Positions 31,001 through 63,406 of a stretch of DNA of 64,000 nt are shown piece after piece. The translations under genes and the position numbers were made by a program. Source of the DNA: Amphiura filiformis (lineage: Eukaryota > Echinodermata > Ophiuroidea > Amphilepidida > Amphiuridae); the NCBI RefSeq assembly GCF_039555335.1, contig NC_092628.1:62326735-62390734 (forward strand), in the 5' to 3' direction. Positions within the stretch are counted from its first letter, which is position 1, and each line of letters begins with the position of its first letter. The notes beneath the pieces were generated by a model. It saw only the letters and a list, made by a program, of their open reading frames with translations. It searched no databases and was not told the origin of the DNA.

Positions 31001-34000
31001 GAAACATTCTTTTGAATATGTTATGAAAACGTTTTATGCTTGTCAGGAGATTTTGCAATGAATGTGGTTGAAATTGAGTCATTGAGGAATTTTAATTTCA
31101 GCACCTCTTTCTTTGCTGTTTGACTTAAATTGAGCCAACTCAAGAAATTAGCATCCCAATTTAGCTTTAAGGGAAGGGGTATGAGCGTTTGGACAGTATT
31201 TATTGTGGGACATTAGAGCACATCAGACATATCGAATTGCATTCTGAATCGTCCTTCTGATATCAAATAATTTTGATTTTTTGAAATTCGCAATGTAATA
31301 CACATTTTATGACAAATCATTAAAAATTGATATTTTTGATATTTAACAGTACTCGAAGTAAACTATGATGCTAAAATTTACATTAGGATTAGGATTATAG
31401 TTGGATGTGCAGCCACTATTCTAATGTTGCTACCTAAATTCTTTAGACATGTGTGGACTTTCAATATTACAGTTTTAAGGGTATCTTTTGGGGGCCTTTT
31501 GAAGTAGAATATAAGACAAAAGTTGCAGGATAAAAGAATAAATGAAGTCCAGATGGATTGTGATATTACCTTTCTGGTTGACGGTACTGGTCACTTCTGG
31601 CTGGTGCTGCAGCTTGTTGATCATATCCCTGCTAAGTTGAAAACAATCAAGAATATGATATTGAAAAAGTGTGTGTAACAAAATGTGTACATGTGCACAA
31701 AATTAATTCTTTGTCTCATGTCGCCTGCATGCGCAAAATCATCGTAAAATGTAAAAACCATGACATATTAAATCATCTCGCTCCAGCTCTTTTCCTCACC
31801 GTGCAATGATACACTAGCCTGGCTGGTGATCACATTAAACCGTGTCAGAGACTGACATGTACAGCTGTTGTCAGGCGACATTTACCTGAATTTACCTTAC
31901 ATTTTTATGTCTTTTTCTTATTTTTGCCTAGTGTTTTTCCTACTTCTTTCTAATAATTTTTAATGAAAATGGCTTCAGGTACGTCAATAATACGAGTGAA
32001 GGTGTTGTATGAAAGAGAAAGCATATGGTTGGTATTATACCAACAAAGTCATCAGCTACGTTTGCGGCAATTTTGCAAGAAATTTTAGATGGAAAAAAAA
32101 CCTTGTGTCACTGAATTCACTGGACTGAACTTGACAATATGCAATTTGGATGCAAGATGCACTATTAAAGATCGAGATCAGGCTGTGTGGGCCTCGATGC
32201 CGTTGTGTTATCCACTTGATGGCCGAGGAGGTCCATTGAATTTTTGAAGTCAGAAGTGACGTGAGACAAAGAATTTAAAAATAATGTTGTTAAAAAGCCT
32301 CATTCTGCATTAAATTTTTGATGTGAGACAAAGAATTAATTTTGTTTGGCCTAATAACAATTATATTAATGCTCATCTAATGCAGGGCTCCAAAAATATA
32401 GCAGAAGATTCATTTTATTTGAATGAGCCATCAAATGCATTGCAAAATTATATTTTATAATTAATTTAATAGATATGCAATAAAATGTTACGAAACCATA
32501 AAGTAAGTTTGGTATAGAAAATTATCATACTTAAGCTAATAATTTTGGATTAATTCACCAGATTCAGTTTTTGGTTTTAAACCAAAAACTGAATCTGAAT
32601 CAGTTTTTGGTTTTAAACCAAAACTGAATCTGGTGAATTAATCCAAAATTAAAATTAAAATTCTCTCTAAGGACAAGCCTTGAAAAATATGTACTTGTAC
32701 TCACCGGTGATGCTTGAGGTGCAGGGGATGGCCCTGAAGGAGGAGGACCCTGTCCTGGGAAAAATGCAGGATTAACATGAGGTGCTGGAGGCCCACCATG
32801 AGTAGGAGGAGGGGTTGCCTGACTTGTTGGGGGTGGTCCACTGTGTGGAGGATGTCCTCCATGTGGGGGAGGTCCACTGTGAGGTGGTGGTGCTCCACTA
32901 TGGGGTGGGAGTTGTTGATGTTGTGGAGGGGGTCCACCATGTGGTGGTGGGGGTCCAGCATTAGGTGGAGGTGGTCCACCACGTTGTGGAGGTGGTCCAC
33001 CATGTTGTGGCGGTGGTACACCATGTTGTGGTGGTGGTCCACCATGCTGTGGTGGTGGTCCACCATGCTGTGGCAGTGGTCCACCATGCTGTGGAGGTGG
33101 AGGCATGGGTCTTGATGGGGGAGGTCCTTGCATTCCTGGAGGTGGAGGACCACCTGGAGGACCTTGTGGTGGGGGCATACCTTGGGGTGGTGGAACACCT
33201 TGTGGGTATCCTCCTGGGCCAGGGGGTGGTGGTCTGGGTGGACCACCAAATTGTCCAGGGGGTGGGGGACCTCCAAATTGTCCTGGAGGTAGTGGACCGC
33301 CTGGTGGAGGACCTCCTGTGGACAAAACAAAAACGAAAGTGGTAACACATAAGAGAAAGTTTGGTGCTATAACATACCAGAGATATGCATACAAAATTGT
33401 TTACAGAGATTCATTTAAAATGTCTGGTATTAAAACATTGGGATAATAATTAATTAGACTCATAACACATGTGTATTGATATAGAATGGCGTGTATATGC
33501 AGTTGGGCACAGCACTTATGCACCTGTCACTTGTATGACACACTATTCGACCCCGGGAAAGGTGCATCATGGGTGGGTCATTTGCCGTCAAATTATCGAC
33601 ACAGTGTACAGTCAGAGAAGCCACTGGTCAGTTACAACATACATACATTAAAAATGCTTATAGAGTGCTGCTACATAAAGAAAACACATAGGTGTGTCAA
33701 TGTCAGTCACTTTACCTTGGTGCATCAAATGTCCATCATCAGTGGTTTCCCTAGCTTTCAAGCAACATATCAAAACCTGATGAGCCCATGAGAAGTTATG
33801 ACTACCATGGGCCATCCATAATAATTGCTCATAAATCATCAGTCGAAATACAGTTTCATCTTCCTTTAAAAATCCCAATTCCCCGAAAAAAATACATTTG
33901 GGTATCAGCATGCGGGAACTGGGGTTACTGAAAATTTGCTATTTTTTATGTCATCAAAATGATGGTATAACGGTCATTGGACAAATGACACACCATTCCC

Positions 34001-40000: not shown

Positions 40001-43000
40001 CAAGCATTCATCTTATTTTCAAACTTGCATGAAGATAAGAGTGCAAACTGCTATGTGACCTATGGACTAGTGCATGATGGGAAAAGGAAATGGTCTAAAC
40101 ACAATTTCTACTTAATCCCACACACATACATCGGAATGTGGGCATGTTGCCTGTGGGGGTTGACACTAAGTCAGGTTTGGGAGCGAACTCAAAAATAGCG
40201 CGAGTGCACACAAAAGAAACTTTGTGCGTAAGATGAGTGATGTCACCAGGTCCGAACGCTGTACTGTCGTCATCTGAATTCAAGTATGCTTAGAGAGCAC
40301 AGGCGTGAAATATTCCAATCTATGTTATTAATCTATGCCCACACACCTTGCAAAAAATGCACCTGCTTAAAACATGGGATAAGGCCAGACTGTATTGATA
40401 TTGAATAGCATTAGCATTACACACAGTTAGAGTGCAGCACCTACACCTACACTAAATAGCATAAACGTTGAGTTAATAGCTGTCAGGCATAATGAGCATG
40501 TCCATGATTGCCTGTGACTTTTGTATGTACAACAGGGTTTCATAAGTCATGTACAGCTGCAATGTACATCATGCTCAGGGAATGCATGTGACCAAAGAGT
40601 GTACCGCAACTTCAAACACTAATAACAAGTTTAGTGCACTTTGCGTAATGTGTAACCGGAGCACTTTCCTAATTTTATGCAGGTATAAGTTGACTTTATT
40701 TTGCTCCAAAAGCATCTCAAAAACTCCTCCAGCCTTGACAACCATAACAGTGATAATATATTCTTGTATAAATTGTTACATAGACATAGTCAAATCATTG
40801 TACAGAAAGACCTAAATACTGCACCTTTCACCTTCAAGTAGTAAATGCAATATACTTGGCACACAAGTGGACTATTATGGTCGATAACCAAATAACCAAG
40901 GAATAACCAAATAACCACTATTATAAGCATAAAATGAATGATAAATGAGCCTCTATGGCGCAGCATATTGTATTAGTACATGTAGGATTTTCTAAAACAG
41001 ACATTCTCAAATAGTAGTGCACGGCAGGGTTCCAAGTGGTACGCTACCTCACTTCTGGAACCCTGCCACAGCTTACACTCCTGGACCACATTGGATAGTG
41101 GCACTAAAGATTCATTTCATTTCACACAGTGGCACTTCAGAATATCCATTTGAGAATGCCTGGTTTAAAACAATTACTGAGTTCACACTACATGTGGGGA
41201 TTGAAAACTTAGGGATTCAATCATGTTTCACCATTGTTCATCACCGTTTAACAACGATACGTCTGCGTTGGAGTGTCCGGCACGTCTGCTTGGTTTACTT
41301 CGCTCGTGCAGCTTTAAGCCCGAGCATAGTAAACCACGCAGACGCATGGTTGTTAAATGGTGATGAACAACGGTGAAACATGATTGAATCCCTTTCAACA
41401 ATGAAAATAAGCTAAAGATTGTATAATTCAAAGGATTATTTCATGAGGAATGTGTCAGTTAGTCATTGTCACTCAGCCTTGGAAAAAAGATTGGTGATTT
41501 CAGCAATAAAACTACAGAATAACGCGGCAATGTTTATAGCCGCTATCTCCAAAAAGTACGTAATTCAACTTATAAGTATGTATGCACATGCACATCGGTT
41601 CCAGGCATGAGGAATTTATGTGCTCTCACGTAACGCGTATTCGCTACTGTACAAGTGTGGATTCATCACAGATTAACAACGGTTGACTCCTGCACAAAGG
41701 TATAGGAAGAGTTGTTGAACTAACATTTTACAACTAATTCATTATACCAATACTGATCTAGATGATCAATTTACAATTAATTTGTCAGAGTGATCATCAT
41801 GAACAAAGAATACATTCATTCAGGTGTTGGTGCACAAACTAAACTAAGTTGGGTTGGGTAAGAAGCTTCTTTCACCCATTCATCTACCATCCCTATTATA
41901 GGTGGCAAACACCTTCATAAACAAAATATAATATGTGCTACACTTACCCCACCAGGTCTTGGTGGTGGAGGTCCTCTCATACCAGGTGGTGGACCTTGCA
42001 TCCCTGGGGGCCCTTGGTTGGGCGGAGGCCCACGTGGAGGTCCTTGGTGCGGAGGTCCTTGGTGTGGAGGCCCTTGGTGTGGTGGCCCTTGGTGTGGTGG
42101 CCCTTGGTGTGGTGGCCCTTGGAATGGTGGCCCTTGGTGTGGTGGTGGCCCCTGGTGGGGTGGTGGCCCTTGGTGTGGTGGTGGCCCCGGATGCGGTGGT
42201 GGCCCTTGGTGCGGCGGTGGCCCTTGGTTTGGTGGCCCTTGGTGTGGTGGCCCTTGGTGTGGTGGCCCTTGGTTTGGAGGTCCTTGATGTGGGGGTCCAA
42301 AATGTGGTGGCCCTTGATTGGGTGGCCCTTGATGTGGAGGGCCTTGATTTGGAGGTCCTTGATGTGGTGGTGGGCCACCATGAGGTGGAGGTGGTCCTTG
42401 ACCAGGTGGTGGTCCATGTGGTCCTGGTGGTGGAGGACCTCGCGGTGGAGGTCCACCTCTACCTGTGAGGGAATCAATGAAATAAATGTGTAGACACATG
42501 AAGTTTGACCATATTAGCGGCCCTCCTCTAATGCACCCCCTAAAGAATGTTTTTTGCGAAAACAATCTTAGTGCCCACTTTCTGTATTCCTCATAACATG
42601 CTCAATCGGAGGTTATTAACGGACGTGTTGATACTATGCTTTTTTCCGTACAGTACGCGTATTGTTACAGAGAGCCTTACTACGGGATGTGTGCACTGTA
42701 CTGAAGTAGCCTGGGTTAGGAACAGTAACCTCAGATTGTGCACTGTTTAGTACTCCTGTACTACAAATTCAATCAACTGTCTCATTAAAATCACCAACTA
42801 AACATTTCCGTTTAGGGAAATGATTTCATTTCATAATTTTAATAAGCGCCCCCTTAAAATGACTGACTTAAACGCTTGGGGTGCTAATTCGGTCAAAATA
42901 TGATACATAATCTTTTGTGGAAACAATTTAAATATTTATAACATTGTTTATTTCTCTAACAGATTTAAACCAAAGTATCCTGTGGAAAAATGAACTTTAG

Positions 43001-46000
43001 AAATAACACCTTACCTGGCATGAAGGGCTGCTGACCTGGAGGTGGTGGCCCTTGTCCATGTGGTGGACCCATAGGACCACGTGGAGGTGGCCCTCCAGGG
43101 CCTGGCCCCATACCTGGTGGACCACCAGGCCCTGGGAAACGCTCCCTTGGTGGTGGCCCCATTCCTGGAGGTCCTCCAAATGGAGGCCCACCAGGACCCA
43201 TGCCTCTTGGTCCTGGGGGACCTCCATGACGATGAGGTGGTGGTTGATCATGGTTATTGTATTTATTATTCTCATTTCTTCCGCGGTATTCCCCAGTTGG
43301 AGGGCCTGGTCTGCCATCAGTTCCACCTTGGGCTTTAAATAAGAAAATAATTGGAATCATAAAATAACACCTGTTCTTTAATATAAGAATGCTTCTTTAA
43401 ATTTTTAGTTGGTTAATCAATTAAAAAAAAGGAACTAGTAGAGCACTCATTCTATATTTCTGTTTTTCTATGTTTCCATTTCAGTCTCAGATCCTAGACA
43501 TGTGCAGCCATGAATCAAAAGTTACAATCTATTGATGGCAAATCATACACTCCAAGATAGTGAGAACCAATCAGAGCAAACGTTAGTAAATTACTAGCCA
43601 TGCATAATGTTGTACAATTGCACGGGCCGCACTCCGCATAGTACACAGTGTATTTTCAAACATTTTTAGTGACAATTTTGTTATAAAAATTGCAAAAATT
43701 ACTGTATTTTTTTTCTCGTGTATGAAATAGGTTGATAAATGCGTATATTAGATGCATCAACATCTCAGTACGCGTGCGTTATTTTGTACAATTTCACTCC
43801 CAAAAAGTGATACACATGTATAAACCTATAAATCATGCAGTAGATGTGTCACAAGCCCTTACCTTTCCTTGAAGCAGATTCAAACTGTTGTAGATTCTGT
43901 CGATTAAATTGTGTTACAACAGGTACTTGACCATGCAACTCTCTGAAATAAAAGAAACAATGATGCATAGTTTTGTGTCTGTAAATATATATATATGATA
44001 CTTGCTTCCAACTTGCCAAGCAAGTGCTTGTTCAAAAAAGGTCTGGTATACTTAATTTGTGTTCAAAAGGGAAATTAACCTGAAACATAATGTGACATAG
44101 CTAACCTTAAGGTCAAAATATTCTACAAGTGTACTGATTTCACTAATTGTGAGAAATAATTTGACAATTCAACTTCTTTTAAACAACATTTGTACCAAAT
44201 TCCAATCCCAACCCTAACCCCAAAACACAGGAAAACAAATTAAATGAAGAATATTATACAAGGTTTGTCTTTCAAACATTTTCCGAATAAGCTATGTGCT
44301 ATGCTTTAATACTTTTATTTTAGAATAAGTTCTATGCAGGATTTTTGTTGTTGTTGTATTTTTAGCCCACCTTTTCTTGGCCCAAAAACATGCCTGTAAA
44401 AACCCAATTACCTTTTAACCAAGCCTTGCATTATGAGTCTGAATGATTGATCTGAACCAACAAAAATGGCTGCAAATCCCTTGGACTGTCCATTGGCACG
44501 ATTCTCGTAAAACTTGATCTCAAGCAAATCGTTGACCCCTAGATCTGCGACAGCATCTGACAGATCCTGGTCAGTTGTCCACTGCAATGTCAGAAATAAA
44601 TATGTACTTGACAGTTATAACAAAGCTCACAAAGTCAGTAGAAAATATATTTAATGACAAAATGTTAAACAAGGGAAGAGGCTTATACATCATACACTGG
44701 AACATAGAAACATTCAAATATTACAAACAATAGTGGGAATTCCAACTGAATGAACGTAGCTTTCAATAGCGTGACGATTTTTTGTGTACGCCAGCGTGTG
44801 CGACTGTGCGTGAGTCAGTAGCGTAGCCAGCGGGGGCAGGGGGGCAGAGTGCCCCCCCCCCCCTGACAAAAAATGAAAGAAAAACGGGCCCCTTTGCCAA
44901 AAAATGAAAGAGAAAATCAAAGGGCAAAAGCAAAAGAAAAAGGGCAAGGAGCCCCTTTTCTAGCAAAATTTAGGGCCAAAATAGTGCAAAATACAAAATT
45001 TTTCCACGCTACGCGCGCACATTGTAACAATATATAGCCCTTTTAGCCGGATAATGGGCGAAAATAATGTAAAATACCATTTTTTTTTTTTTTTCTCGCA
45101 CATCATCCCAATAAGGCCTTTTTCGGGCAGCTCAAAGACATACAATCTCTATGTATTGTATGATGCAACTGCAATTTTTTTCGTCTGTGCCCCAAAATTT
45201 TTATTTTGCCCCCCCTGACCAAGAAAGCTGGCTACGCCCCTGGCGTGAGTAACGCGGAAGTGAATCCAACCATGCCAACGCACTCGTGATTGGTTAGCAT
45301 TGTATCCAAGGTCGTGCATTCGCGTTGTAATTTGAAATAAAGCGATATGCGATATAATTAGAATTCCTACTATAGCGCACAAGATGCTATAATATTATAG
45401 CTCCAGCTGGATTAACTCAGGGCAATGTTTATAACAGTTTAACCCTATTTGACCCCATTTGACATTTGACCCATAACCTACCTCTAACTCAAACCACTGC
45501 CTACTCGAGATAAATCAATGCTGTGAAGATGGACACCAATACTCACTTAGATCAAAAGACATCACATAATCGGACACACAAATGGAGGGACATACAGACG
45601 GCAGAGGACTTCAAATATTTACAGTAAATTTTAATGTCTACCAACACAGCTAGTAATTACTTGCTATCTTTCACACATATATTTTGCCATTCCCAGAGTA
45701 CACTACTACTATTTAACACAAATTGATTGTCTCACCCATGTTAGGTTGCCAACATAGAGGCCAATCCTCCTTGATGAATGTGAGAAGTTACTACTACTAC
45801 TACTGGATGATGTCCGGTTGACTTGGGCAGGTGGTTTCCCTGGAGGACCAGCATCACCACCAGCTGAATACCTCTGTACAAAGAAACAAATCAGTTTAAG
45901 AAACTCACTAACCTGTGACAGCACATGGGCCATAAGTTTAATGGTGGTTGTTTTATAATAAACTAAAACATGTCATATAATTTGCCTTGAACTGTCCTAA

Positions 46001-56906: not shown

Positions 56907-57026
56907 ATGAAGCATTATTACCACTGTCCACTAGTATTCACAACTTTGATATGTTTGCTAGTCTTCTACACAGTTGAAGCAACCAGCACAAAGCCAAACA
57001 TTATCTTCATTGTAGCTGATGATTTG
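56907..57026 (+). CDS. Arylsulfatase exon 1: signal peptide and first catalytic Asp pair
   Basis: It encodes [20 protein letters not shown] and then [20 protein letters not shown]. The hydrophobic core [12 protein letters not shown] is a signal peptide, with cleavage probable near VEA. The DD pair binds the active-site metal in this family. A TTTTCAG precedes the ATG by seven bases, so the exon may start with a spliced 5' UTR. An upstream in-frame ATG at 56868 would add 13 residues, and the downstream ATG gives the better signal peptide. The donor is GTAAGC, phase 0. Confidence 0.88.
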
Positions 57027-60000
57027 GTAAGCTTACTATACCGGTACTCAAAGGAATTTGTTAATGTGGTTTTAATAATATTTGTTCAAATTTAGTCTTG
57101 TATTTTTCTGGATTTGTGAGTAATTAGTATTCAGATTATTTGGTTTATGATTTTAAAACCAAAAAAAAAAATTGATTTTGATTTGATTTGATTTATTGAC
57201 AATCCAGGCAAGCAAACATACAAAAGCTGAAAAAGGGAAAATATATAGTCAACGGGTTACCTGGTGGATTCCGTAGTAGCAAACTAAATCACTTTAGTGG
57301 ATCACCGACAACCCTGTGAACGAAAAAGAAAAATGTGACCGTACACCACGAATGAGCCGTAAATTCAGCCCACGTTCAATTTAGTTTTATTTTGTGTTTA
57401 GAAAATATATATCATAAGCTTTAAAATGGTATATCATTTGACTTCAAACGATATCCAGAAGCGGGGTTATGGTTTGTTGAACTTTGCTCCTTCAACAAAA
57501 TGGTACCTTTTATCGGTTCTACGTGTGTCTCTTTTTCGACATTGCTGGAAATAAATATCAAACAGTCACAATTGATGGTCACTTGAAATCATCCTCAAGT
57601 CAACTGAGGGAACAGCAAAAACATGTTGGTAAAAAGCATTGTAGAAATAACTTGTTTTCTGCTTGTACACAGGGTTGGAATGATGTCAGCTTTCATGGCT
57701 CAGACCAGATCCCAACACCAAATATTGATAAGCTAGCTCAAGAGGGCATCATTCTTATGAATTATTATGTGTCACCAATATGTACACCAACACGTAGTGC
57801 CATCATGACAGGGAGACATCCAATACACACAGGCAAGTATCTTACAAGCTAGCCTATGAAGGCATCATTCTTATGAATTATTATGTGTCACCGATATGTA
57901 CACCAATACGTAGTGCCATCATGACAGGGAGACATCCAATACACACAGGCAAGTATCTTACAAGCTAGCCTATGAAGGCATCATTCTTATGAATTATTAT
58001 GTGTCACCAATATGTACACCAACACGTAGTGCCATCATGACAGGGAGACATCCAATACACACAGGCAAGTATCTTACAAGCTAGCCTATGAAGGCATCAT
58101 TCTTATGAATTATTATGTGTCACCGATATGTACACCAACACGTAGTGCCATCATGACAGGGAGACATCCAATACACACAGGCAAGTATCTTACAAGCTAG
58201 CCTATGAAGGCATCATTCTTATGAATTATTATGTGTCACCAATATGTACACCAACACGTAGTGCCATCATGACAGGGAGACATCCAATACACACAGGCAA
58301 GTATCTTACAAGCTAGCCTATGAAGGCATCATTCTTATGAATTATTATGTGTCACCGATATGTACACCAACACGTAGTGCCATCATGACAGGGAGACATC
58401 CAATACACACAGGTAAGTATCTTACAAGCTAGCCTATACATGAGGGCATCATTCTTATGAATTATTTATGTCACCGATATGTACACCAACACGTAGTGCC
58501 ATCATGACAGGGAGACATCCAATACACACAGGTAAGTATCTTACAAGCTAGCCTATGAGGGCATCATTCGTATGAATTATTATGTGTCACCAATATGTAC
58601 ACCAACGCGTAGTGCCATCATGACAGGGAGACATCCAATACACACAGGTAAGTATCTTACAAGCTAGCCTATACATGAGGGCATCATTCTTATGAATTAT
58701 TTATGTCACCGATATGTACACCAACACGTAGTGTCATCATGACAGGGAGACATCCAATACACACAGGCAAGTATCTTACAAGCTAGCCTATGAGGGCATC
58801 ATTCTTATGAATTATTATGTGTCACCGATATGTACACCAACACGTAGTGCCATCATGACAGGGATACATCCAATACACACAGGCAAGTATCTTACAAGCT
58901 AGCCTATGAGGGCATCATTCTTATGAATTATTATGTCACCAATATGTACACCAACACATAGTGCCATCATGACAAGGAGACATCCAATACACACAGGCAA
59001 GTATCTTACAAGCTAGCCTATGAGGGCATCATTTGTATGAATTATTATGTGTCACCGATATGTACACCAACACATAGTGCCATCATGACAGGGAGACATC
59101 CAATACACACAGGCAAGTATCTTACGCTACCCTATGAGGGCATCATTCTTATCACCGATATGTACACCAACACATAGTGCCATCATGACAAGGAGACATC
59201 CAATACACACAGGCAAGTATCTTACAAGCTAGCCTATGAGGGCATCATTTGTATGAATTATTATGTGTCACCAATATGTACACCAACACGTAGTGCTATC
59301 ATGACAGGGAGTCATCCAATACACACAGGTAAGTATCTTACAAGCTAGCCTATGAGGGCATCATTCTTATGAATTATCATGTCACCGATATGTACACCAA
59401 CACGTAGTGCCATCATGACAGGGAGACATCCAATACACACAGGCAAGTATCTTACAAGCTAGTCTATGCGGGCATCATTCTTATGAATTATTATGTGTCA
59501 CCAATATGTACACCAACACGTAGTACCATCATGACAGGGATACACACAGGCAAGTATCTTACAAGCTAGCCTATGAGGGCATCATTCTTATGAATTATTA
59601 TGTCACCGATATGTACACCAACACGTAGTGCCATCATGACAGGCAGACATCCAATACACACAGGTAAGTATCTTACAAGCTAGACTATGCGGGCATCATT
59701 CTTATGAATTATTATGTCACCAATATGTACACCAACACATAGTGCCATCATGACAGGGAGACATCCAATACACACAGGCAAGTATCTTAAAAGCTAGCCT
59801 ATGAGGGCATCATTCTTATGAATTATTATGTGTCACCGATATGTACACCAACACGTAGTACCATCATGACAGGGAGACATCCAATACACACAGGCAAGTA
59901 TCTTACAAGCTAGCCTATGAGGGCATCATTCTTATGAATTATTTATGTCACCGATATGTACACCAACACGTAGTGCCATCATGACAGGGAGGCATCCAAT

Positions 60001-63000
60001 ACACACAGGCAAGTATCTTAAAAGCTAGCCTATGAGGGCATCATTCTTATGAATTATTATGTGTCACCGATATGTACACCAACACGTAGTACCATCATGA
60101 CAGGGAGACATCCAATACACACAGGCAAGTATCTTACAAGCTAGCCTATGAGGGCATCATTCTTATGAATTATTTATGTCACCGATATGTACACCAACAC
60201 GTATTACCATCATGACAGGGAGACATCCAATACACACAGGCAAGTATCTTACAAGCTAGCCTATGAGGGCATCATTCTTATGAATTATTATGTGTCACCG
60301 ATATGTACACCAACACGTAGTACCATCATGACAGGGATACACACAGGCAAGTATCTTACAAGCTAGCCTATGAGGGCATCATTCTTATGAATTATTTATG
60401 TCACCGATATGTACACCAACACGTAGTGCCATCATGACAGGGAGACATCCAATACACACAGGTAAGTATCTTACAAGCTAGCCTATGAGGGCATCATTCT
60501 TATGAATTATTTATGTCACCGATATGTACACCAACACGTAGTGCCATCATGACAGGGAGACATCCAATACACACAGGCAAGTATCTTACAAGCTAGCCTT
60601 TGAGGGCATCATTCTTATGAATTATTTATGTCACCGATATGTACACCAACACATAGTGCCATCATGACAGGGAGACATCCAATACACACAGGCAAGTATC
60701 TTACAAGCTAGCCTATGAGGGCATCATTCTTATGAATTATTATGTGTCACCGATATGTACACCAACACGTAGTACCATCATGACAGGGAGACATCCAATA
60801 CACACAGGCAAGTATCTTACAAGCTAGCCTATGAGGGCATCATTCTTATGAATTATTATGTGTCACCGATATGTACACCAACACGTAGTACCATCATGAC
60901 AGGCAGACATCCAATACACACTGGCAAGTATCTTACAAGCTAGCCTATGAGGGCATCATTCTTATGAATTATTTATGTCACCGATATGTACACCAACACG
61001 TAGTACCATCATGACAGGGAGACATCCAATACACACAGGCAAGTATCTTACAAGCTAGCCTATAATGAGGGCATCATTCTTATGAATTATTTATGTCACC
61101 GATATGTACACCAACACGTAGTGCCATCATGACAGGGAGATATCCAATACACACAGACAAGTATCTTACAAGCTAGACTATGAGGGCATCATTCTTATGA
61201 ATTATTTATGTCACCAATATGTACACCAACACGTAGTACCATCATAAAGCAGCAGAAGAGGATAATAAGTTCTACATGTACACTTCATTGTGACATATCA
61301 ATTGCCTTTGTTGATGTGTTTGACAAGTTGTTTTAATCAGGCTTGACAGGATGTGTTGGGTTTTTTTCTTAGGTATGCAGCATCTGGTTCTTGGTCCTGA
61401 AGCATGGGGATTAGGCCTTGAAGAAGTCACCATTGCACAGAGATTGAAAACTCTTAAATATAAGACACATATGGTGGGAAAAGTAGGTGTATAAACATTG
61501 ATGTGATCACATGGAAGAAGTAATTTTGTCATGGTTCATATTGGTTTGGTTTGGTGTTGCTTTAAATCAGTTGCACGGTTTGCTTGCTCAGTGAATCTAA
61601 CAGCACTGTCTTATGACAAGAGAACAGCGCTGTTGCTTCAACCTAGTTCCAATTTACTCTTTAACTCCAAAGCCTATAATTTGGCCAAATTTTATTTTTT
61701 TGGCCCAATTTTATTTTTTGGCCCAATTTTATTTTTTTGCCCAAAATCAGTTCTTAGCCCTCAAGCCCAATACCATCTGGAACAAGGGAATATATTTGAC
61801 AGAGAAACTGGCCTCAGAGCCCCGTGTGCAATACTGAAAATCCACCATATTGGAATATATACATTACAACATATAATATTGTGCTTAGTATATCCATATT
61901 TGCAGTTTACAAATACTGTTTTGGAATATCATTTTGTCAATAACTGCTAACTGTGTTTGCAAAGCTCATGCTATCAAAGACACCAGTCATTGTACAATTC
62001 CAGTCTTAACTGAAAATTGCTGGAATTCTACTTTCGCCTCTTGTATGACAATATGATTCCATCATGATTTGATAGAGTTCACATAGGGCTGTGGAGTCTG
62101 TCTTCATCAATTTTGAGGACACTGAGCAAAAGAAATGCCCCATCTAAAAAGTATATAATACTTGAGTATTACTGTTTTTTTAGGTTGTTTGTGTTGAGAA
62201 TGTATTAATGTGTTGCAAGTACGTTCACCCCCACACACCCCATACACATACAATTTGGTATCTTGTGACCCAGAAGTTATTCTTAACAGAAATGTTTTCA
62301 ACACAAAAGTGGCTCTAAAGCAAATTAATGCACAACTTTTCACCCCAGGCTTACAACATGGCAATTGTGGAGCATGTAAGCAGAAAGCATTGAGTGTCAA
62401 TGAAATCACCATAGCACAGAAATTAAGGAGTCAAGGGTACAGGACTCACATGATAGGCAAAGTAGGTAACATCTCCAGTCCCTCTTGTGCCAAAATTAAG
62501 GTTCTCAATTTGTGGACTAGCTAACTGTGCATGTATATAACTACTCCCTATTCCAGAAAAATACAGAACCAATTTTTCTGAATAAAAATGAAATATAGCT
62601 AAATCCTAACTAGCAAAAAAAGTCAAATTTTAATATTTAGCCAAATTTTTGGAAATAAGGGCCAAAAACATGCATTTTTAGGGTGTTTTTTGTATGTTGT
62701 GACAATCAAGCCCAAAGACTTGTACTAAGGCTAATTTCAGTTTATGCATTCTATTTTTTGGAAAAGACATGTTTCATTCTTATAAGTTATAACCAACCAT
62801 TAAATTAAAGTAACATAACAAAATTGAAAATTAGAGCAAAATTTTGGCATATACTCAAGATTTTGAATACTTAGACTTGTTCCAAGTCTGTGATTTTTGT
62901 GACTCAATTGTCAGGAAACATACCGTAAATGTATGTTTTTTTGGCTCTTTTTTCAAGAAATTAGTAAAATAGTGAATTTTTTCGTTTATCTCCAGTTAGG

Positions 63001-63406
63001 ACTAAATGAATGATTAGGATTGAGCTATGTTTCATTTGGCAGAACTTGATAATAATTTTTTAATCCCAAAAAATTAGTGCTGTATTTTTCTGGAATGGGG
63101 AGTAATGAGTTCACCCTATTCATTCCACCTGTCTTTTCGTCTGCTATTGTTTTTGTAGCATACACCTTTGCTCTTTTAGCTGTTGAATTAGCTATTCCAC
63201 CAAACCAAACCAATGACATGCTGCTGTTAAACAGAGACTGACCTAAGAAAAATGCAGTATTAAAAATAAGTTGCTTCAATTTCAATATTTTAGGCATGCA
63301 GCATGGTACTATTACTGGTCCGCATCCATATGGACTTCCATTAAATGAGACCACAATAGCACAGAGACTAAAAATGCATGGTTACTCTACACATATGGTT
63401 GGTAAA
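56907..63406 (+). CDS. Arylsulfatase B-like (N-acetylgalactosamine-4-sulfatase family) gene, 5' part, with alternative exons
   Basis: Exon 1 (56907-57026) encodes a signal peptide and [12 protein letters not shown]. Exon 2 (57673-57832) continues with [10 protein letters not shown] and the catalytic [12 protein letters not shown] motif. Three alternative versions of the next exon follow. Sulfatases hydrolyse sulfate esters with a formylglycine made from the Cys of C-x-P-x-R. The family's two metal-binding Asp (ADD), the Cys and the Arg are present here. The order ADDLGWND - HGS - CTP-R - TG - GMQH - HMVGK follows human ARSB, a lysosomal enzyme of dermatan/chondroitin sulfate breakdown. The signal peptide means secretion or lysosomal delivery. 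The C-terminal two thirds lie past the right edge. Many marine deuterostomes have numerous arylsulfatases, so I give no specific symbol. The 31-unit repeat in the third intron is unusual. Confidence 0.9.
57027..57672. other. Arylsulfatase intron 1
   Basis: It holds a (TTTGA)n-like run near 57175 and no coding exon. A 369-base open frame runs through its 3' part into exon 2 but shows no family similarity before the acceptor. Confidence 0.7.
57673..57832 (+). CDS. Arylsulfatase exon 2: formylglycine motif, GC-type donor
   Basis: The acceptor is ACACAG and the exon enters in phase 0. It encodes [20 protein letters not shown] and [15 protein letters not shown], then the catalytic [19 protein letters not shown]. 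The Cys is the one converted to formylglycine. The donor reads ACACAG|GCAAGT, a GC in place of GT with an otherwise ideal consensus. It leaves in phase 1. Its last ~103 bases and the first bases of the intron are the founder of the array that follows. Confidence 0.93.
57730..61246 (+). repeat. 31-unit tandem array of the catalytic half-exon (about 116-bp unit)
   Basis: The first unit is the end of real exon 2. Each unit runs from AAGCTAGCCTATGA through the C-T-P-T-R coding stretch and CACACAG to the donor-like GCAAGTATCTTAC, then straight into the next unit. I counted 31 copies by their TGTACACCAA core. About half carry a 1- or 2-base deletion (ATTATTTATGTC or ATTATTATGTC for ATTATTATGTGTC) that breaks the frame. 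Six have GTAAGT at the donor place, most have GCAAGT, and unit 30 has ACAAGT. Units at 58945, 59060, 59158, 59726 and 60640 read CAT where the catalytic Arg codon CGT should be. Units 16 and 23 share a deletion of GACATCCAA. The last unit stops inside the motif. Confidence 0.97.
61373..61482 (+). CDS. Arylsulfatase exon 3, alternative version A
   Basis: After TTTTTTTCTTAG it encodes [20 protein letters not shown] and [16 protein letters not shown]. It enters in phase 1 and leaves in phase 0 at GTAGGT. The final K corresponds to the active-site Lys of the GKWHLG motif of ARSB, whose WHLG should be in the next exon. It has the best polypyrimidine tract of the three versions. Confidence 0.88.
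61483..62348. other. Spacer between alternative exons A and B
   Basis: The sequence is AT-rich and contains three near-copies of TTTTTGGCCCAATTTTATTT (61680-61745). No further exon copy is seen. Confidence 0.6.
62349..62461 (+). CDS. Arylsulfatase exon 3, alternative version B
   Basis: After ACCCCAG it encodes [20 protein letters not shown] and [17 protein letters not shown]. Phases are the same as in version A. It is the only version with Cys residues in the variable loop (NCGACK). Human ARSB has two Cys in the matching loop. Confidence 0.88.
62544..63102. mobile_element. TA-flanked MITE of the 'TTCCAGAAAA' family between alternative exons B and C, 559 bp
   Basis: The left end is CTCCCTATTCCAGAAAAATA, and the reverse complement of the right end is CTCCCCATTCCAGAAAAATA. 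TA lies at 62542-62543 and 63103-63104. The interior is shared with 12668-13060. It makes up two thirds of the B-C spacer. Confidence 0.85.
63294..63406 (+). CDS. Arylsulfatase exon 3, alternative version C
   Basis: After ATATTTTAG it encodes [20 protein letters not shown] and [17 protein letters not shown]. It enters in phase 1 and leaves in phase 0 at GTAAGT, the best donor of the three. NET is a possible N-glycosylation sequon. Confidence 0.88.

Follow-up and report, generated by a model that had tools for sequence, protein, structure and literature searches.

Sulfatases change substrate while keeping one catalytic core, and how they do so is an open question. An arylsulfatase B-like gene of the brittle star Amphiura filiformis may bear on it: between its formylglycine exon and its WHLG exon lie three tandem copies of a single exon. 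Does the gene choose among these cassettes, or does one of them do the work? We approached this question in a 64-kb window, i.e., the whole stretch of DNA that was analysed. We lean towards one gene with three alternative tandem exons, one of which is chosen per mRNA, likely tuning the active-site loop. The cassette set itself is real and probably functional.

On its plus strand the window contains the 5' part of a single gene, namely exon 1, exon 2 and cassettes A, B and C (Table 1). A homologue search, in which 2515 of 3003 candidate proteins had an E value of 0.001 or lower (the best 120 listed), returned P0001, "arylsulfatase B-like [Amphiura filiformis]", a protein of 584 aa that is identical to exons 1, 2 and C joined together. 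Cassettes A and B therefore sit within the exon 2-C intron of a known gene model. The WHLG exon expected 3' of the cassettes was not found in the window; its entry in phase 0 was read from P0001, in which K131 is followed by W132. Predicted proteins with A, B or C all match PF00884 (E 6.8e-22, 4.6e-21 and 4.8e-23, respectively), and CTPTR in exon 2 is the C-x-P-x-R formylglycine motif of type I (S1) sulfatases. No match to NCBIfam passed the cut-offs.

Table 1. Features of the sulfatase locus within the 64-kb window.
Feature	Positions	Strand	Length	Description
Exon 1 of the arylsulfatase B-like gene	56907..57026	+		Start codon, hydrophobic N-terminus, ADDL motif; 100% to P0001 over 40 aa
Exon 2	57673..57832	+		CTPTR formylglycine motif; ends in phase 1; GC donor (gcaagt); 100% to P0001 residues 41-94
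Tandem array	57730..61245	+		~116-bp unit, 30.7 copies (TRF); 3' half of exon 2, donor and intron start
Cassette exon A	61373..61482	+	110 nt	Phase 1 to 0; AG/GT ends; HMM 57.6 bits
Cassette exon B	62349..62461	+	113 nt	Phase 1 to 0; AG/GT ends; HMM 47.7 bits; loop Cys100 and Cys103
MITE-like insertion, B-C intron	62542..63104	+		47-nt inverted ends, 85% complementary
Cassette exon C	63294..63406	+	113 nt	Phase 1 to 0; AG/GT ends; HMM 72.2 bits; 100% to P0001

The initial annotation had described three homologous exons in a row, each with its own acceptor and donor and each entering in phase 1 and leaving in phase 0, and this description is exact in its coordinates and splice ends. A cassette HMM trained on 274 family members, the two Amphiura proteins being excluded, matched only A, B and C in the six frames of the window (the next best hit reached 5.4 bits), so the cassettes are not a product of chance. 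All three have lengths of 2 mod 3. A single cassette keeps the reading frame, omission of all three shifts it, and all six ordered pairs as well as ABC run into stop codons, with A followed by B ending, as had been proposed, at a TGA within B. It had also been claimed that the frame allows only one cassette per mRNA. The frame break stands, but it only makes double-spliced mRNAs useless, not impossible. One copy would be picked per mRNA, and messages with two cassettes or none, having lost their frame, would themselves be lost, presumably through truncation or decay.

Each cassette ends in the active-site Lys, to which the segment had been said to lead. The equivalent residue of human ARSB, Lys145, is named in Table 3 of PMC7404199, and it is kept in 253 of 253 cassettes of length 38. 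In the predicted structure, residues 93-114 form a coil (pLDDT ~98) between a helix (77-86) and a strand (125-131), and cassette choice would exchange an ordered loop of 14-16 residues between the formylglycine helix and the strand ending in that Lys. That the loop "differs completely" was an overstatement: over 38 aligned positions A and C share 24 residues, B and C 19, and A and B 17, with B being the outlier. Given that the catalytic Lys and the scaffold are kept, we infer that the swap probably tunes substrate choice or stability. An N-x-T sequon (NET) occupies positions 111-113 in C only, where A has EEV and B NEI; judging by these motifs, cassette choice could also toggle a glycosylation site.

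The rival that survives best, though we hold it to be unlikely, is that C is the working exon and that A and B are old duplicates no longer spliced in, or rare noise. Of the three cassettes, C alone is represented among the database proteins listed, by way of P0001. Its name has no isoform label, which suggests a single annotated isoform; further isoforms could be among the six members of its cluster. Neither A nor B occurs in the database proteins listed (the best 120 of 456; 229 proteins compared). The cassette of a second Amphiura protein, P0005 (arylsulfatase J-like isoform X2, from another contig), is closest to C, with identities of 82% to C, 68% to A and 50% to B. Cassettes A and B also match the family less well than 95% of its members do: the family HMM scores are 75.1 for C, 59.8 for A and 52.0 for B, while the family has a 5% quantile of 63.8, a median of 80.2 and a minimum of 43.1. 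Moreover, A has lost a near-invariant Gly (Gly123Lys).

Against this reading, both A and B have kept their frames, their splice ends and a set of ten conserved positions nearly intact despite high or saturated dS. Among those ten invariant or near-invariant columns, C breaks none, A only the Gly just mentioned, and B one (Val129Ile). The NG86 method gave dN 0.38-0.46 and dS 1.08-1.28 for A/C, the range reflecting gap placement, and dN 0.445 and dS 3.1 for B/C; for A/B, dS was saturated and not computable. We also simulated neutral drift with C as the stand-in ancestor of A and B, asking in how many runs the frame stayed open, the splice ends were retained and the HMM score did not fall below the observed one. 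At 0.2 substitutions per site this held in 0 of 400 runs for A and 4 of 400 for B, and at 0.1 substitutions per site in 27 and 102 of 400, respectively (for C the simulation is uninformative, because its stand-in ancestor A already scores below C at the start). On the strength of the sequence, A and B look selected, with dN well under dS and neutral simulations soon losing the pattern. The losses in the simulation make long-standing neglect of A and B unlikely, while a recent loss of use is compatible with them. All three cassettes have T114-I115-A116-Q117. Few other cassettes have A116 (25 of 253), and the shared motif fits one common ancestor of A, B and C.

A further argument against disuse comes from the cysteines, because Cys565 of P0001 finds its usual partner only in B. 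We take positions 103 and 565 to be those forming a disulfide in human ARSB (C117-C521). Of 303 fetched proteins, the 285 with a length of 400-720 were aligned, leaving aside 18, and co-occurrence was counted: C565 is present in 45 of 50 proteins with the loop C103 versus 7 of 235 without it. The control pair C107/C141 gave both residues in 64 of the 285 proteins, C141 only in 1 and neither in 220. P0001, with Pro at 103, is one of the seven that have C565 but no C103, the six others being P0017 (Clytia) and P0048 (Ptychodera), both named isoform X2, and P0049, P0276, P0293 and P0299. The converse, C103 without C565, is found in five proteins, of which three are gapped at position 565 and two (P0250 and P0252) carry Ser, preceded in the tail by a Cys at a distance of four residues. 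In the Amphiura gene Cys103 is supplied by B only, which aligns ungapped at 38 residues with a Cys at 103, while A has no Cys. All 45 double-Cys proteins fall in P0150-P0229 and are, as far as named, fish; as a single group, they make the association count for about one evolutionary event, and the Fisher value of the count carries little weight. We regard Cys565 in P0001 as modest independent evidence that B belongs, or once belonged, to this protein. Cassette B may close a disulfide between the loop and the C-terminal Cys565, which A and C cannot do. Human arylsulfatase B (1FSU) has two Cys in this loop; the second loop Cys and the WHLG-segment Cys of vertebrate-type ARSB are absent from P0001, which has Gly107 and Tyr141 in their place.

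The arrangement is also shared by amphioxus gene models, which again speaks against A and B being mere leftovers. The initial annotation knew of no sulfatase with such a cassette, and at the level of the database this is contradicted by the arylsulfatase B-like isoforms X7, X8 and X9 of Branchiostoma lanceolatum, which differ solely in the cassette and are the same before residue 98-101 and over the 418-421 residues after it. Isoforms X3, X7-X10 and X12 of this protein (P0004, P0075, P0081, P0029, P0032 and P0033) have the 38-residue cassette at the same place as Amphiura. Unlike in Amphiura, the amphioxus cassettes are less diverged (71-82% identical), have no loop Cys, and are accompanied by a swap of the WHLG segment: X9, X10 and X12 (P0029, P0032 and P0033) differ only in that segment, of which there are three versions. 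Two neighbouring segments, the cassette and the WHLG segment, therefore vary in B. lanceolatum. Isoform X3 (P0004) has two cassettes linked by 25 residues starting with VS, and this link reads as a retained short intron would.

At least two cassette domains were found in 8 of 303 proteins. In three they are adjacent (P0004 and the Mactra proteins P0006 and P0037, the second cassettes of Mactra being without their first residues), in two a WHLG segment lies between them (Tigriopus P0232 and Petrolisthes P0234), and the remaining three (P0002, P0003 and P0261) were rejected as double-cassette genes because they are fused gene models. The bivalve Mytilus offers a pair, P0060 of M. edulis and P0097 of M. 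galloprovincialis, with 100% identity over the 60 residues before the cassette, 99% over the 120 after it and 76% in the cassette, although two species are compared here and P0097 passes into unrelated sequence within its second half. A pair filter returned 118 pairs, many of them across species or genes and uninformative, and only the amphioxus and Mytilus pairs were used. Sea-urchin X1-X3 were rejected as a clean case, since the overall identity of P0012 and P0015 is 74%, despite shared blocks that include 59 residues ahead of the cassette, and that of P0026 to either is 53-55%; Batillaria P0101 and P0119 were rejected because their gene names and N-termini differ. The amphioxus, Mytilus and Mactra cases are database gene models, and those of Mytilus and Mactra hint at the same cassette swap. 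Tentatively, a disulfide toggle confined to B could, together with the loop change, give one gene several sulfatase specificities or stabilities, with the same exon having been recruited for swapping in brittle stars, amphioxus and bivalves, either on repeated occasions or from early bilaterians onwards.

How would a single cassette be chosen? The A-B and B-C introns measure 866 and 832 nt and the cassette splice sites are GT-AG and, by eye, of the major type, which argues against steric blocking and against mixed U2/U12 spliceosomes. Docking/selector pairing above background was not found, either for the array unit against four stretches or for six intron pairs, the downstream intron lying mostly outside the window. 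Duplex energies were mostly no better than those of shuffles, the strongest (z -2.2) pairing the A-B intron with sequence that follows C, and U1 duplex energies are weak and alike (-4.8 for A and B, -5.1 for C). Exon B lies between the arms of a perfect inverted repeat of 17 bp (61540-61556 and 63198-63214; 0 of 300 shuffles), but this was dropped as evidence of pairing since the window has 39 inverted repeats of at least 17 bp within 2.5 kb. A term search of PMC9013439 found no terms for an exclusion mechanism. This leaves frame damage as the means by which double-spliced mRNAs would be removed, with other regulators setting the choice.

The same observations bear on a second rival, which we regard as improbable, in which A and B are poison exons: their inclusion together with C would be a regulated event whose frameshift lowers the level of the sulfatase, and no other enzymes would be made. 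Every double inclusion does lead to a stop, and with major-type sites and introns of this length nothing that we saw physically prevents double splicing. Yet a poison exon has no need of sulfatase-like sequence, and both the active-site Lys and the scaffold are retained in A and B; single inclusion of either also keeps the frame. Least likely is that A, B and C are separate neighbouring genes, a possibility raised by the initial annotation, or were joined by an assembly error: neighbouring sulfatase genes exist (e.g., those of the two differently named Batillaria proteins, whose contigs are of equal length) and the nearby 30-copy array is hard to assemble, but the window offers A and B no separate exon 1, exon 2 or WHLG exon, none lies among the three cassettes, C is joined to exons 1 and 2 in P0001, and the A-B and B-C introns are without long similarity to each other or to other introns, sharing short or repeat-derived pieces only. 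With one gene and three alternative exons as our preferred reading, we infer that A and B are used as well as C, one at a time in the cell.

Tandem duplicated exon substitution, or mutually exclusive exons, is well known, with 236 human cases given in PMC9741552. As described there, the human cases resemble Amphiura in having homologous tandem exons, a constant remainder of the protein and conserved key residues; the Amphiura case differs in being a sulfatase and in being known from the gene sequence and the C protein. A term search of the main text of that paper found neither sulfatase nor ARSB, and sulfatase is likewise missing from the main text of the genome paper of A. filiformis (PMC11310086). 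PMC9146820 contains the word sulfatase and lists mutually exclusive exons only as a type of splicing; both terms also occur in PMC9691389. In our searches of the open-licence literature, outside of which most subscription papers lie, we found no sulfatase described as having such alternative cassettes. The Amphiura gene is probably a new example of mutually exclusive splicing of tandem exons, in an arrangement already present in amphioxus database models. If true, a glycan-degrading enzyme would join the genes diversified by tandem-exon choice, and nature would have supplied an experiment in which the loop beside the active site is exchanged while the remainder of the enzyme stays constant. 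Arm regeneration in A. filiformis has been linked to chondroitin/dermatan sulfate (reference cited in PMC11310086).

The stretch between exon 2 and cassette A is taken up by the tandem array, which has 31 unit starts; the 30 units between them carry 23 GCAAGT donors, 6 GTAAGT donors and in 1 case none. Six units thus have a perfect GTAAGT donor, whereas the real exon 2 uses GC. The units were considered as extra exons and rejected: 16 of 28 exon-like pieces (including the exon 2 tail) are open and in phase, 12 are shifted or stopped, which indicates no apparent coding constraint, and P0001 does not use any. Further 3' than the window, residues ~420-510 of P0001 contain three near-identical in-frame repeats (PGRVSCP.RPANATTNC), in a stretch mostly of low pLDDT, which gives the impression that the gene model has taken in a second exon-intron tandem array. 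The MITE-like element occupies most of the B-C intron, and related pieces lie at ~12.7-13.1 kb and 36.3-36.5 kb. Elsewhere in the window, the translation of an open frame at 451-786 presumably resembles squalene monooxygenase, and repetitive Gly/Pro-rich open frames are found on both strands at 32600-33446 and 41862-43396.
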